Below, one piece after another: positions 9,198 to 13,293 of a stretch of 36,629 nt of DNA. Every line of letters begins with the position of its first letter. The first letter of the stretch is position 1. The position numbers and the translations under genes are program-made. The notes under the pieces were generated by a model that worked only from the letters and a program-made list of their open reading frames with translations, had not been told where the DNA came from and ran no database searches. Origin of the DNA: Gammaproteobacteria bacterium (GTDB lineage Bacteria; Pseudomonadota; Gammaproteobacteria; SpSt-1174); the NCBI GenBank assembly GCA_037388465.1, contig JARRKE010000015.1, forward strand, positions 1-36,629. The letters are read 5' to 3'.

Positions 9198-9420
9198 TTA
9201 TAAAAATATAGAACAGGGGCCAGGATCGCGGCGGGTGCGTGTTTTACCACACCCATGGTCAGAATATTAAGCAAAACCGCCTTATGCGCCTTTTTATCGG
9301 CCATTATCCGGCAACCGGGCGCGTAAGTGTTTGATCGGGATCAGCTCCATTCCGGTGCCGGGCAATCTCTGTTTTAATCGGGTCCCTCAGACCGCCATTC
9401 ATCCAAGGTCCCACGCCACA

Positions 9421-12132
9421 ATGCCCGACAAACCCGCCAAGCCGCTCGTCCTGGTCGACGGTTCCTCCTATCTCTACCGCGCCTTCCACGCCCTGCCCCC
9501 GCTGACCACCCGCGAAGGCCAGCCCACCAACGCCGTGCTCGGGGTGGCCAACATGCTGCGCCGGCTGCTCAAGGACTACGATCCCGAGCAGATGGCGGTG
9601 GTGTTCGACGCCAAGGGCAAGACCTTCCGCGACGAGCTCTACAGCGAGTACAAGGCCAACCGGCCGCCCATGCCCGACGAGCTCAAGCAGCAGATCGAGC
9701 CCCTGCACGAGGTGGTCGAGGCCCTGGGCCTGCCCATGCTCATCGTCGAGGGCGTGGAGGCGGACGACGTGATCGGCACCCTGGCCACGGCGGCGGCGCA
9801 GGCCGGGCGCGAGGTGGTGATCTCCTCGGGCGACAAGGACCTGGCCCAGCTGGTCACCGAGCACGTCACCCTGGTCAATACCATGAACGACACCACCATG
9901 GACGCCGACGGGGTGCTGGACAAGTTCAAGGTGCCGCCCGAGCGCATCATCGATTACCTCGCCCTGGTCGGCGACAGCTCGGACAACATCCCCGGCGTGC
10001 CCAAGGTCGGCCCCAAGACCGCCGCCAAGTGGCTGCAGGAATACGGGTCGCTGGACGAGGTGGTCGCCCACGCCGACGAGATCAAGGGCAAGGTGGGCGA
10101 GTATCTGCGCGAGTCGCTCGACCAGCTGGCGCTGTCGCGCAAGCTGGCCACCATCCACTGCAACGTGGACCTGGACGTCGGCATCGATGACCTGCATCTG
10201 CGCGAACCGGACCGCGCCTGGCTGCATGAACTGTTTACCCGCCTGGAGTTCAAGTCCTGGCTGGCGGAGCTGGAGGCAGGCGGGGATGCGACGGAAGCGG
10301 GACCCGACGCTGCGGAAAAACCGGCGGCGGACTATCGCGCCGTGCTGACCCAGGCCGATTTCGACGCCTGGCTGAAGCGCCTGGAAAAGGCCGGGCTGTT
10401 CGCCTTCGACACCGAGACCACCAGCCTGGACTACTCGCAGGCCGAGGTGGTCGGCGTCTCGTTCGCCGTCGATCCCGGCGAGGCCGTCTACGTGCCGCTG
10501 GCCCACGATTACCCCGGTGCGCCCGCCCAGCTCGACCGGGATGCGACCCTGGCCCAGCTCAAGCCGCTGCTGGAAGATCCCGGCAAGGCCAAGCTCGGCC
10601 ATCACCTCAAGTACGACCGCAACGTACTCAACAACCACGGCATCGAGCTTCGCGGCATCCGCCACGACAGCATGCTCGAGTCCTACGTGCTCAATGCCTC
10701 GGCCAACCGGCACGACCTCGACACGCTGTGCGAGAAGTACCTGCAGCACCAGAACATCCATTACGAGGACGTGGCGGGCAAGGGCGCCAAGCAGATTACC
10801 TTCAATCAGGTCGCGGTGGACGATGCCACCCCCTACGCGGCGGAAGACGCCGACATGACCCTGCAGCTGCACCGCCTGTTCTGGCCGCAGCTCGAGGCCG
10901 AACCGGGGCAGCGCCGGGTGTACGAGGAAATCGAGATTCCGCTCATCGAGGTGCTGTCGCGCATGGAATGCCGCGGGGTGCTGGTCGACACCGACAGCCT
11001 GTTCCGCCAGAGCCACGAGCTCGCCGAGCGTATGGCCGAGCTGGAACAGCAGGCGCACGAGGCCGCCGGCGAGGCCTTCAATCTGGGTTCGCCCAAGCAG
11101 CTGCAGGCCATCCTGTTCGACAAGCTCGGCATCACGCCGCTGCGCAAGACCCCCAAGGGGCAGCCCTCCACTGCCGAGGACGTACTTCAGGAACTCGCCC
11201 TCACCCACGACCTGCCGCGCCTGATCCTGGACTACCGGGCCATGACCAAGCTCAAGTCCACCTACACGGACCGCCTGCCCGAACAGGTCAATCCGCGTAC
11301 TGGGCGGGTGCACACCTCCTATCATCAGGCGGTAGCCTCCACCGGCCGGCTGTCCTCGTCCGACCCGAACCTGCAGAACATCCCCGTGCGCACCGAGGAG
11401 GGCCGGCGCATCCGCCAGGCCTTCGTCGCGCCGAAGGGGCACAAGGTGCTGGCGGCGGACTATTCCCAGATCGAGCTGCGCATCATGGCCCACCTGTCGG
11501 CCGACCCGGGACTGCTGCGCGCCTTCGCCGAAGGGCAGGACATCCACCGGGCCACCGCGGCCGAGGTGTTCGGCGCGGCGCCGGACGAGGTCAGCGGCGA
11601 ACAGCGCCGGGCGGCCAAGGCCATCAACTTCGGCCTGATCTACGGCATGTCCGCCTTCGGCCTGGCGCGCCAGCTCGGCATCGGGCGCAACGAGGCGCAG
11701 GAATACGTGGACCGCTACTTCGCGCGCTATCCCGGGGTGAAGGCCTACATGGACCAGACCCGCGAACGGGCGCGCGAGCAGGGTTACGTCGAGACGGTGT
11801 TCGGTCGCCGCCTTTACCTGCCCGACATCCGCGCGCGCAACCAGCAGGTGCGGGCCCAGGCCGAGCGGGTGGCCATCAATGCCCCCATGCAGGGGACGGC
11901 GGCGGACATCATCAAGCGGGCCATGCTGCGCGTGGACGGTTGGATTCAGGGCGAGCAGCCTCCGGTAGCGATGACCATGCAGGTACACGACGAACTGGTG
12001 TTCGAGGTGCGCGAGGACGCGATCGACATGGCGCGCGGGCGCATCAGCGACCTCATGTCGGGCGCCGCCGATCTGGACGTTCAGCTGGTGGTGGACGTGG
12101 GGGTGGGGGACAACTGGGACGAGGCCCATTAA
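9421..12132 (+). CDS. polA: DNA polymerase I
   Basis: PolA fills gaps and removes primers in repair and replication. The 903-residue protein has all three domains. The 5' nuclease domain (about 1–290) starts at PLVLVDGSSYLYRAFHAL. The 3'–5' proofreading domain (about 310–500) keeps the active-site residues in FAFDTETTSLD and the later AAEDADMTLQL, so proofreading looks intact. The polymerase domain has motif A (DYSQIELRIMAHLS), motif B (RRAAKAINFGLIYG) and motif C (QVHDELVFE). The start at 9421 was chosen because the family sequence begins there; the frame is open 90 bases further upstream without similarity. A hairpin lies directly behind the stop, but its T-run is on the opposite strand. 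Confidence 0.98.
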   Translation: MPDKPAKPLVLVDGSSYLYRAFHALPPLTTREGQPTNAVLGVANMLRRLLKDYDPEQMAVVFDAKGKTFRDELYSEYKANRPPMPDELKQQIEPLHEVVEALGLPMLIVEGVEADDVIGTLATAAAQAGREVVISSGDKDLAQLVTEHVTLVNTMNDTTMDADGVLDKFKVPPERIIDYLALVGDSSDNIPGVPKVGPKTAAKWLQEYGSLDEVVAHADEIKGKVGEYLRESLDQLALSRKLATIHCNVDLDVGIDDLHLREPDRAWLHELFTRLEFKSWLAELEAGGDATEAGPDAAEKPAADYRAVLTQADFDAWLKRLEKAGLFAFDTETTSLDYSQAEVVGVSFAVDPGEAVYVPLAHDYPGAPAQLDRDATLAQLKPLLEDPGKAKLGHHLKYDRNVLNNHGIELRGIRHDSMLESYVLNASANRHDLDTLCEKYLQHQNIHYEDVAGKGAKQITFNQVAVDDATPYAAEDADMTLQLHRLFWPQLEAEPGQRRVYEEIEIPLIEVLSRMECRGVLVDTDSLFRQSHELAERMAELEQQAHEAAGEAFNLGSPKQLQAILFDKLGITPLRKTPKGQPSTAEDVLQELALTHDLPRLILDYRAMTKLKSTYTDRLPEQVNPRTGRVHTSYHQAVASTGRLSSSDPNLQNIPVRTEEGRRIRQAFVAPKGHKVLAADYSQIELRIMAHLSADPGLLRAFAEGQDIHRATAAEVFGAAPDEVSGEQRRAAKAINFGLIYGMSAFGLARQLGIGRNEAQEYVDRYFARYPGVKAYMDQTRERAREQGYVETVFGRRLYLPDIRARNQQVRAQAERVAINAPMQGTAADIIKRAMLRVDGWIQGEQPPVAMTMQVHDELVFEVREDAIDMARGRISDLMSGAADLDVQLVVDVGVGDNWDEAH

Positions 12133-12259
12133 AAAGAAGCCGGCCCGCTGGGGCCGGCAACAACGCAGGGATAACTCTGACCAACCCACACCGTTCTCGT
12201 GCCGGTAATACGGCCGGAGCAATCACGTAATTAGTGTACGGGAGGGGTGCCGAAGTTCC
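12131..12259 (-). ncRNA. Possible third, diverged small-RNA unit
   Basis: A GGAACTT element (complement of 12253–12259) sits exactly 179 bases from that of the middle unit and 358 from that of the outer unit. Below it on the minus strand lies a perfect 8-base-pair hairpin (12139–12146 with 12151–12158, GCTG or CAGC loop), followed by TTCTTTTTA, a plausible terminator overlapping the polA stop. The body between has no clear similarity to the other two units, and the -10 position (CACTA) is poor. It may be a decayed copy, a different small RNA, or only a terminator for read-through. Confidence 0.35.
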
Positions 12260-12286: not shown

Positions 12287-12405
12287 AAAAAAATTGCCCC
12301 GGCCATGGGGGGTGGCCGGGGCGGGGCTTTGGGCTCGAGCAGGGGGGGATTCGAGCCCGTCACGTTCAGGGAGGTAAACGTGACAGTGCCGGGCTACAGC
12401 ACTTG
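12287..12405 (-). ncRNA. Tandem small RNA, copy A (ErsA/Spot 42 position)
   Basis: Predicted RNA of about 119 nt. From 5' to 3' it has hairpin 1 (12385–12403), hairpin 2 with an 8-bp stem GUCACGUU/AACGUGAC (12359–12366 with 12377–12384) and loop UACCUCCCUG, and hairpin 3 with stem GGGCUCGA/UCGAGCCC (12331–12338 with 12351–12358). The terminator has a perfect 10-bp stem (12296–12305 with 12313–12322) and seven U residues (12287–12293). The loops of hairpins 2 and 3 are C-rich, CCUCCC-like, and could pair with Shine-Dalgarno sequences. A sigma-E-type promoter lies directly upstream. The polA–engB position is that of Spot 42 in enterics and ErsA in Pseudomonas. The likely role is a trans-acting regulator; targets are unknown. 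Confidence 0.75.
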
Positions 12406-12410
12406 AACGA

Positions 12411-12438
12411 TCAGACCGGGGGGTGCAACGAAAGTTCC
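12411..12438 (-). promoter_or_regulatory. Sigma-E/AlgU-like promoter of small RNA A
   Basis: The minus strand reads GGAACTT (12438–12432), 16 bases, then TCTGA (12415–12411). This is the classic extracytoplasmic-stress sigma factor pattern with ideal spacing. The predicted start is 6–7 bases downstream, just before hairpin 1. Confidence 0.65.
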
Positions 12439-12459
12439 TGCGGCCTTCGGGAATTAGAT

Positions 12460-12584
12460 AAAAAAGTGCCCCAGCCTTGGGGGAGGCCGGGGCCAACAAG
12501 TTAGGCTCGGTTCAGGGGGAGGGAGGGATCCGAGCCCGTCACGCTCAGGGAGGGGAACGTGACAGTGCCGGGCTACAGCACTTG
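12460..12584 (-). ncRNA. Tandem small RNA, copy B (ErsA/Spot 42 position)
   Basis: Predicted RNA of about 125 nt and the near-twin of copy A. Its first 28 bases are identical to those of A. It has hairpin 1 (12564–12582), hairpin 2 (12538–12545 with 12556–12563; loop CCCCUCCCUG) and hairpin 3 (12504–12510 with 12530–12536; 19-base C-rich loop). The terminator stem (12468–12477 with 12484–12493) ends in six U residues (12460–12465). Relative to A, hairpins 2, 3 and 4 each carry one G·U wobble, and hairpin 3 also has an A–U to G–C double change. On the plus strand the same bases would be A·C mismatches, so the minus strand is the RNA. The linker before the terminator differs from A. Confidence 0.75.
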
Positions 12585-12589
12585 TCGGG

Positions 12590-12617
12590 TGTGACCGACC
12601 CCCCTGGGGAAAGTTCC
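12590..12617 (-). promoter_or_regulatory. Sigma-E/AlgU-like promoter of small RNA B
   Basis: The minus strand reads GGAACTT (12617–12611), 16 bases, then TCACA (12594–12590). The -35 box is identical to that of copy A and exactly 179 bases away. The -10 box is weaker (TCACA instead of TCTGA). Confidence 0.55.
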
Positions 12618-12669: not shown

Positions 12670-13293
12670 TCAGTTCGAGGCGGCCGCCTCTTCCACGTCG
12701 TAGCCCAGCCAGCCGTCCAGGCGCGCATGCGCCTGATCGATGCCCTCGCGCTTGTGAGCGGAAAAGGTCTGTGCGGTGGCCGGCCAGCCGGCCTCCTTGA
12801 TGGCCCTGCGCACGGCGAGCAGGGTATTGCTCTGCGCGCCGCGCTTGAGCTTGTCCGCCTTGTTGAGCAGGATGTGCGCGTCCAGGCCGCGCGCCTGGCA
12901 CCAGTCGAGCATCTGGCAGTCGTGGTCCCTCAGGGGATGGCGGATATCCATCACGATCACCAGGCCCTGCAGGGACCGCCGGGTGGTGAGGTAGGCCTCG
13001 ATGAAGCGTCCCCAGCGCCGGCGTTCGGCTTCGGGGGCCTTGGCGTAGCCGTAGCCGGGCAGATCCACCAGGTGGCGCCCTTCGCCGAGTTCGAACACGT
13101 TGATCTGCTGGGTGCGCCCCGGCGTCTTGCTGGTACGCGCCAGGTTCTTCTGGCTGCACAAGGCGTTGATGGTGCTCGATTTGCCGGCGTTGGAGCGTCC
13201 GACAAAGGCCACCTCACGGCCGGTGTCCGTAGGCAGCAGAGCGGGATCGGGCACGCTGGTGATAAAGCGCGCCTTGGCGTAGACGGGATTCAT
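12670..13293 (-). CDS. engB: Ribosome biogenesis GTP-binding protein EngB (YihA/YsxC)
   Basis: EngB is an essential GTPase needed for assembly of the large ribosomal subunit. The 207-residue protein has P-loop GRSNAGKSS at 32–40, the conserved TPGRTQQINVFELG switch region, G3 DLPGYGYAKAP and G4 NKADKLKRG. The start at 13293 (MNPVYAKARFITSV) matches the family start. The open frame reaches back to 13536, but that part covers the c4 promoter and shows no protein character. The polA–sRNA–engB–cytochrome c4 order is conserved in Pseudomonas-like gammaproteobacteria. Two or three small-RNA units lie downstream on the same strand, so read-through from engB into them is possible. Confidence 0.97.
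   Translation of the reverse strand: MNPVYAKARFITSVPDPALLPTDTGREVAFVGRSNAGKSSTINALCSQKNLARTSKTPGRTQQINVFELGEGRHLVDLPGYGYAKAPEAERRRWGRFIEAYLTTRRSLQGLVIVMDIRHPLRDHDCQMLDWCQARGLDAHILLNKADKLKRGAQSNTLLAVRRAIKEAGWPATAQTFSAHKREGIDQAHARLDGWLGYDVEEAAASN

Follow-up and report, generated by a model that had tools for sequence, protein, structure and literature searches.

Two predicted sRNA units in the polA–engB gap

The small RNAs (sRNAs) Spot 42 and ErsA are both encoded between polA and engB, and the question raised here is what the two repeated units in this same gap of our window (the whole 36,629-nucleotide stretch of DNA analysed) are, and whether they belong with those RNAs. Some 540 bases separate the convergent genes polA and engB here, and both units lie on the minus strand of this gap, in the sense of engB (Table 1). 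Reading the sequence from each GGAACTT to the following T-run places unit A at 12617–12460 and unit B at 12438–12287, and the model search found nothing else in this genome that matches clearly. An earlier note on this DNA had proposed two tandem, self-terminated sRNA genes on the minus strand at 12287–12617, and the coordinates, folds, terminators and a covariance model (R1, below) all confirm it. The units are RNA of a known kind, namely an unannotated relative of the polA-linked sRNAs that has been duplicated and inverted, and they are not private to the window.

Table 1. Features of the polA–engB gap and its flanking genes, in window positions
Feature	Positions	Strand	Basis
polA (DNA polymerase I), flanking gene	9331..12132	+	ORF; tblastn to homologues beside engB
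Possible decayed third unit	12131..12258	-	GGAACTT 12258-12252 and weak R2 match 12131-12234
Unit B, predicted sRNA, ~119 nt	12287..12405	-	start inferred; R1 E 9.4e-10; R2 71.9 bits; fold z -7.8
Unit B predicted intrinsic terminator, CCCCCC in loop, with T-run	12287..12322	-	terminator prediction
Unit B hairpin 3, loop AUCCCCCCCUGC	12331..12358	-	fold; family loop 3 motif
Unit B hairpin 2, loop ACCUCCCU	12359..12384	-	fold; family loop 2 motif
Unit B hairpin 1	12385..12403	-	fold; family covariation
Unit B putative promoter, sigmaE/AlgU type	12411..12438	-	GGAACTT 12438-12432, 16-base spacer, TCTGA 12415-12411
Unit A, predicted sRNA, ~126 nt	12460..12585	-	start inferred from promoter; R1 E 3.9e-6; R2 62.1 bits; fold z -5.5
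Unit A predicted intrinsic terminator, C-rich loop, with T-run	12460..12493	-	terminator prediction
Unit A hairpin 3, enlarged C-rich loop (CCCUCCCUCCCCCUG)	12503..12537	-	fold; family loop 3 motif
Unit A hairpin 2, loop with CCCCUCCCU	12538..12563	-	fold; family loop 2 motif
Unit A hairpin 1 (AGUGCUG UAGCC CGGCACU)	12564..12582	-	fold; family covariation
Unit A putative promoter, sigmaE/AlgU type	12590..12617	-	GGAACTT 12617-12611, 16-base spacer, TCACA 12594-12590
engB (yihA/ysxC) GTPase, flanking gene	about 12670-13293	-	translation; 61% identity to same-family EngB

Both units share one layout: hairpin 1 with the stem AGUGCUG/CGGCACU, hairpin 2 with a CCUCCCU loop, hairpin 3 with a loop that is long and C-rich, and a C-loop terminator whose stem of 10 pairs runs into a T-run. 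Folding, terminator prediction and covariation thus agree with the 5′ hairpin, two C-rich-loop hairpins and T-run terminator per unit described earlier, and none of 200 dinucleotide-preserving shuffles folded as well (z scores in Table 1). The units had also been called near-identical, which holds for the 5′ half only; hairpin 1 and the greater part of hairpin 2 barely differ between the units, whereas the promoter spacer, the hairpin 3 loop and the terminator diverge, and overall identity is ~78% over 125 aligned positions. The stems of units A and B differ by paired changes.

A decayed third unit may lie further along the gap, as judged from the sequence. The R2 match there begins 178 bases after the unit B match, compared with an A-to-B spacing of 179. 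It scores 11.1 bits, with an E of 0.001 for 801 bases, and the terminator contributes most of this; unrelated stretches reached 9–13 bits. Hairpins 1–3 are not kept at 12131–12234.

Promoters

The earlier note had given each unit a -35/-10 pair. A putative promoter is indeed present upstream of each, as GGAACTT-N16-TC, which from its sequence is of the sigmaE/AlgU type and not sigma70-like; the promoter search found 0 sigma70-type sites at the units. The -10 element of unit A, TCACA, deviates from the commoner TCTGA. Across the family, with the motif sought up to 60 bases upstream of each copy and stretches of the same loci as controls, the strict form GAACTT-N15-17-TC was found at 77 of 136 copies versus 9 of 1332 control stretches, and a relaxed sigmaE-like form at 105 of 136 versus 27 of 1332 (2%). 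The motif keeps an almost fixed distance from the point where the model match begins, -22 to -28 in most copies. An RpoE (318 bits, above its curated cut-off) and an Hfq (also above cut-off) are encoded in the window genome. At the three sX13 loci read a clear GAACTT promoter was not found, so sigmaE control is not universal among these RNAs.

Covariance models and distribution

R1 was built from ten copies of Nitrococcus, Spiribacter and other Ectothiorhodospiraceae-type bacteria, with the window genome left out. It recovered both window units in a search of 0.55 Mb (E values in Table 1) and matched 24 further loci outside its building set. When all 24 copies found first were aligned with MAFFT, hairpins 2 and 3 were put in the wrong place, and a model-fitted alignment was used instead. 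In the fitted alignment of 36 sequences, 91.8% of cells are paired, with a covariation score of 0.582 versus 0.167 after shuffling, and with 108 sequences the values are 90.1% and 0.646 versus 0.181; as the model guided both of these alignments, they are biased towards it. An unfitted alignment of ten sequences also yields these four hairpins, and 9 of its pairs are doubly changed. In the family, paired changes are seen at each of the 38 pairs, and helix 1 is 97.6% paired, with covariation. The window units match R1 at full length and all helices covary, which places them in this polA/engB-linked group of C-rich-loop sRNAs, to which sX13 and anti-hemB genes also belong.

The rebuilt model, R2, has matches in 156 of the 369 class genomes. 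engB or polA is present at 110 of the 125 R2 loci examined, so the matches are not independent chance events. By comparison, the Rfam cut-offs are reached in 20 of the 369 class genomes by the anti-hemB model and in 3 by the sX13 model; Rfam spreads these RNAs over several families, and its curated cut-offs miss most of them.

The loops carry CCCC or CCUCC in 81% (loop 2), 92% (loop 3) and 69% (loop 4) of family copies, where whole-RNA composition would predict 2–9%. Shuffling the letters within each loop still gives 55%, 88% and 47%, respectively, which shows that C-richness is kept more than letter order. The CCUCC/CCCC loops resemble the anti-Shine-Dalgarno end of 16S rRNA, and looking for targets by simple complementarity would therefore do no more than pick out genes whose ribosome-binding sites are strong.

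Relation to named sRNAs

Neither unit reaches any Rfam cut-off, and membership of a curated Rfam family was rejected on these scores. The earlier note had looked to Spot 42 and ErsA for kinship. Relatedness to the sRNAs of this gap stands, but the closest curated families are anti-hemB of Burkholderia and sX13 of Xanthomonas rather than Spot 42, and the suggested comparison with the Spot 42 (RF00021) and ErsA (Pseudomon-1, RF01719) models gave 14.6 bits (gathering threshold 80) and 14.1 bits (threshold 50).

Anti-hemB (RF02837; Burkholderia RNA 7), which is expressed as RNA ncS04 (PMC5688073), is the best Rfam match by E-value, and it is significant and full-length in both units (model positions 1–81 of 81), scoring 36.2 bits (E 7.6e-7) and 30.2 bits (E 3.7e-5) below a gathering threshold of 49.5. 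It has the CCUCCCUGA loop, the second hairpin and the terminator in common with the window units, which have one more hairpin, at the 5′ end, beyond the 81 positions of the model. In a relative, the copy lying in the polA–engB gap (L010) scores 51.5 bits, above the Rfam cut-off, and a 71-bit anti-hemB gene (L228) directly adjoins engB, has a GAACTT-N-TC promoter and is matched by R2. The best anti-hemB class match read (L188) lies in a stretch with neither polA nor engB. Most genomes whose anti-hemB score passes the Rfam cut-off are matched by R2.

sX13 (RF02232) of the Xanthomonadaceae gave 22 and 16.3 bits against a gathering threshold of 50. Like the window units it adjoins polA and has stable stems with C-rich apical loops; its three stems follow an unstructured 5′ end (PMC3771888), in which the window units differ. 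R2 matched the three bona fide sX13 genes in our sample (Rfam 103–125 bits) in the same places at 41–44 bits (E ~1e-12). sX13 uses its C-rich loops to repress mRNAs that carry G-rich motifs close to their start codons and does not need Hfq, and the authors who described it had already pointed to stem-loops with C-rich motifs as a common feature of polA-linked sRNAs in distant bacteria (PMC3771888).

ErsA lies in the polA–engB gap, as the window units do, has C-rich loops like theirs, and shares what looks like a sigma22/sigmaE-type promoter motif; it is codirectional with polA. Its transcription depends on sigma22, a sigma factor of the envelope-stress response (PMC8395346), and one ErsA gene read here (L192) has a GAACTT promoter, spaced as in other copies. 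R2 matched authentic ErsA genes in the gap only weakly (genome-wide E ~1e-5). Homology by R2 score alone was not accepted for ErsA, as an unrelated SdsR gene scored almost as well, and it is therefore locus and promoter, more than score, that speak for the kinship of ErsA.

Spot 42 occupies the same gene gap, is under cAMP-CRP rather than sigmaE, and acts through single-stranded regions. The best R2 match in the E. coli polA–yihA stretch coincides with its gene, spf, at 11.9 bits (E 0.0033), which is suggestive only. Outside the gap, NmsRA/NmsRB (NgncR_162/163) of Neisseria are also tandem siblings, ~70% identical and with anti-Shine-Dalgarno-like UC-rich regions (PMC5362039). They have three stem-loops and lie at a dsbB–lrp locus, and were rejected as the same family because of this different locus.

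sX13, anti-hemB and ErsA have been described separately, and are linked here by a common locus, a common structure and, in most cases, the same type of promoter. We tentatively propose, as a reading that is plausible while falling a little short of probable, that ErsA, sX13, anti-hemB and possibly Spot 42 form one ancient sRNA lineage, ancestrally sigmaE-driven, that became fixed next to polA/engB in the class Gammaproteobacteria (taken broadly, with Burkholderiales included), with the window as one of several independent tandem expansions combined with a cassette inversion.

Copy number and orientation

The earlier note had raised loss of the hairpins in close relatives as something to look for. 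The two other genomes of the window's family, one of which is Thioalkalivibrio sp. SpSt-1174 (L012), keep all four hairpins, each in a single copy codirectional with polA. Since the copy is single and oppositely oriented in both, the cassette was duplicated and flipped in the window. Among loci with a flanking gene, 101 copies are in polA sense and 9, including the window, in engB sense; both genes end at the gap, so either orientation leaves polA and engB intact. The cassette is flipped relative to polA/engB, as in the window, at L011, L015, L022, L026, L033, L076, L157 and L167.

The tandem pair had been thought undescribed. Among the papers searched we found none describing such tandem arrays at polA, but the arrangement itself recurs: arrays of 2–5 units, mostly two, occur in 16 of the genomes examined, the window's included, and these copy numbers are lower bounds, as the sample was scored with strict filters. 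A T-run closes every array copy, and the relaxed promoter motif is present at 27 of 39. Siblings are more alike within the genome than to any outside array copy in the window, G149 and G263, and are not most alike within the genome in G129, G242 and G337, suggesting that both recent and older duplications exist. Natural arrays of one to five copies make dose versus specialisation of sibling sRNAs testable.

The longest array seen is the five tandem copies directly after polA in G263 (L204 1554-2300), the last two of which are 99% identical. Four tandem copies, most with their own GAAC-type promoter, lie between polA and engB in G172 and G279 (L122 2150-2909, L123 2059-3001). A second tandem pair, distant from polA/engB and next to a gene for an rlmL-like methyltransferase, was found at L131 1661-2046 and L133 1386-1758, and both of these genomes also keep a copy adjoining engB.

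Proposed function

The structure, its covariation, the conserved promoter, the conserved locus and the duplication of the units are supported by the data above. Taking the findings for sX13, ErsA and anti-hemB together, the window pair most likely gives rise to two stress-induced siblings that occlude G-rich ribosome-binding sites, and we consider it probable that this is a duplicated stress-type trans-acting sRNA, induced by sigmaE, whose C-rich loops repress mRNAs with such sites. A single C-rich-loop sRNA, which most related bacteria keep in the polA–engB gap, would have been tandemly duplicated to give two siblings. With a sigmaE (AlgU-type) promoter and a terminator of its own, each unit would be co-induced with the other by envelope stress, and the exposed CCUCC/CCCC loops would then repress the translation of a set of mRNAs by pairing with their G-rich ribosome-binding regions, by analogy with sX13. 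We assume that two copies would give a higher dose, and that the diverged third loops may give each copy a partly different target preference. For this pair we infer transcription, sigmaE control, targets and a division of labour between the units.

It is possible that the second copy is neutral. The idea that one unit is functional and the other a recent neutral duplicate heading to decay, like the possible third remnant, would fit both the single copy kept in the two same-family genomes and the degenerate unit that may lie downstream. However, promoter, four hairpins and terminator are kept in both units, whose stems have changed in pairs, and two to five copies are kept in several other lineages, making this explanation unlikely. 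The units could instead mainly bind protein, or titrate the ribosome or another sRNA as a sponge or decoy, rather than repress specific mRNAs. Loops like the anti-Shine-Dalgarno sequence could bind many G-rich RNAs at little specificity, and the dispensability of Hfq for sX13 activity (PMC3771888) points the same way, but sX13, which R2 matches so strongly, represses defined mRNAs through its loops and their G-rich motifs, and we see only a slim chance for the sponge or decoy. A gap between convergent genes that contains strong terminators might also suggest that the hairpins are merely terminators or DNA-level structures; hairpins 1–3 are not terminators, all helices covary, and one promoter type sits at a fixed distance upstream, which makes this explanation scarcely tenable. 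A duplicated, sigmaE-induced repressor of mRNAs with G-rich ribosome-binding sites is the reading we prefer.

Other loci

Alphaproteobacterial-type R2 matches outside the class have C-rich hairpins, but neither polA nor engB is present in the stretches that were read; these matches may be convergent. Another R2-matched locus outside the class (L225 1662-1800), in a stretch that likewise has neither gene, shows successive hairpins, each with a CCUCC-type loop. R1 finds no family member in the five Alteromonas-type polA–engB gaps L056, L067, L075, L088 and L089. All the same, a GAACTT...TACTCTTA motif in polA sense is conserved in them, and they possibly hold another sigmaE-type sRNA.
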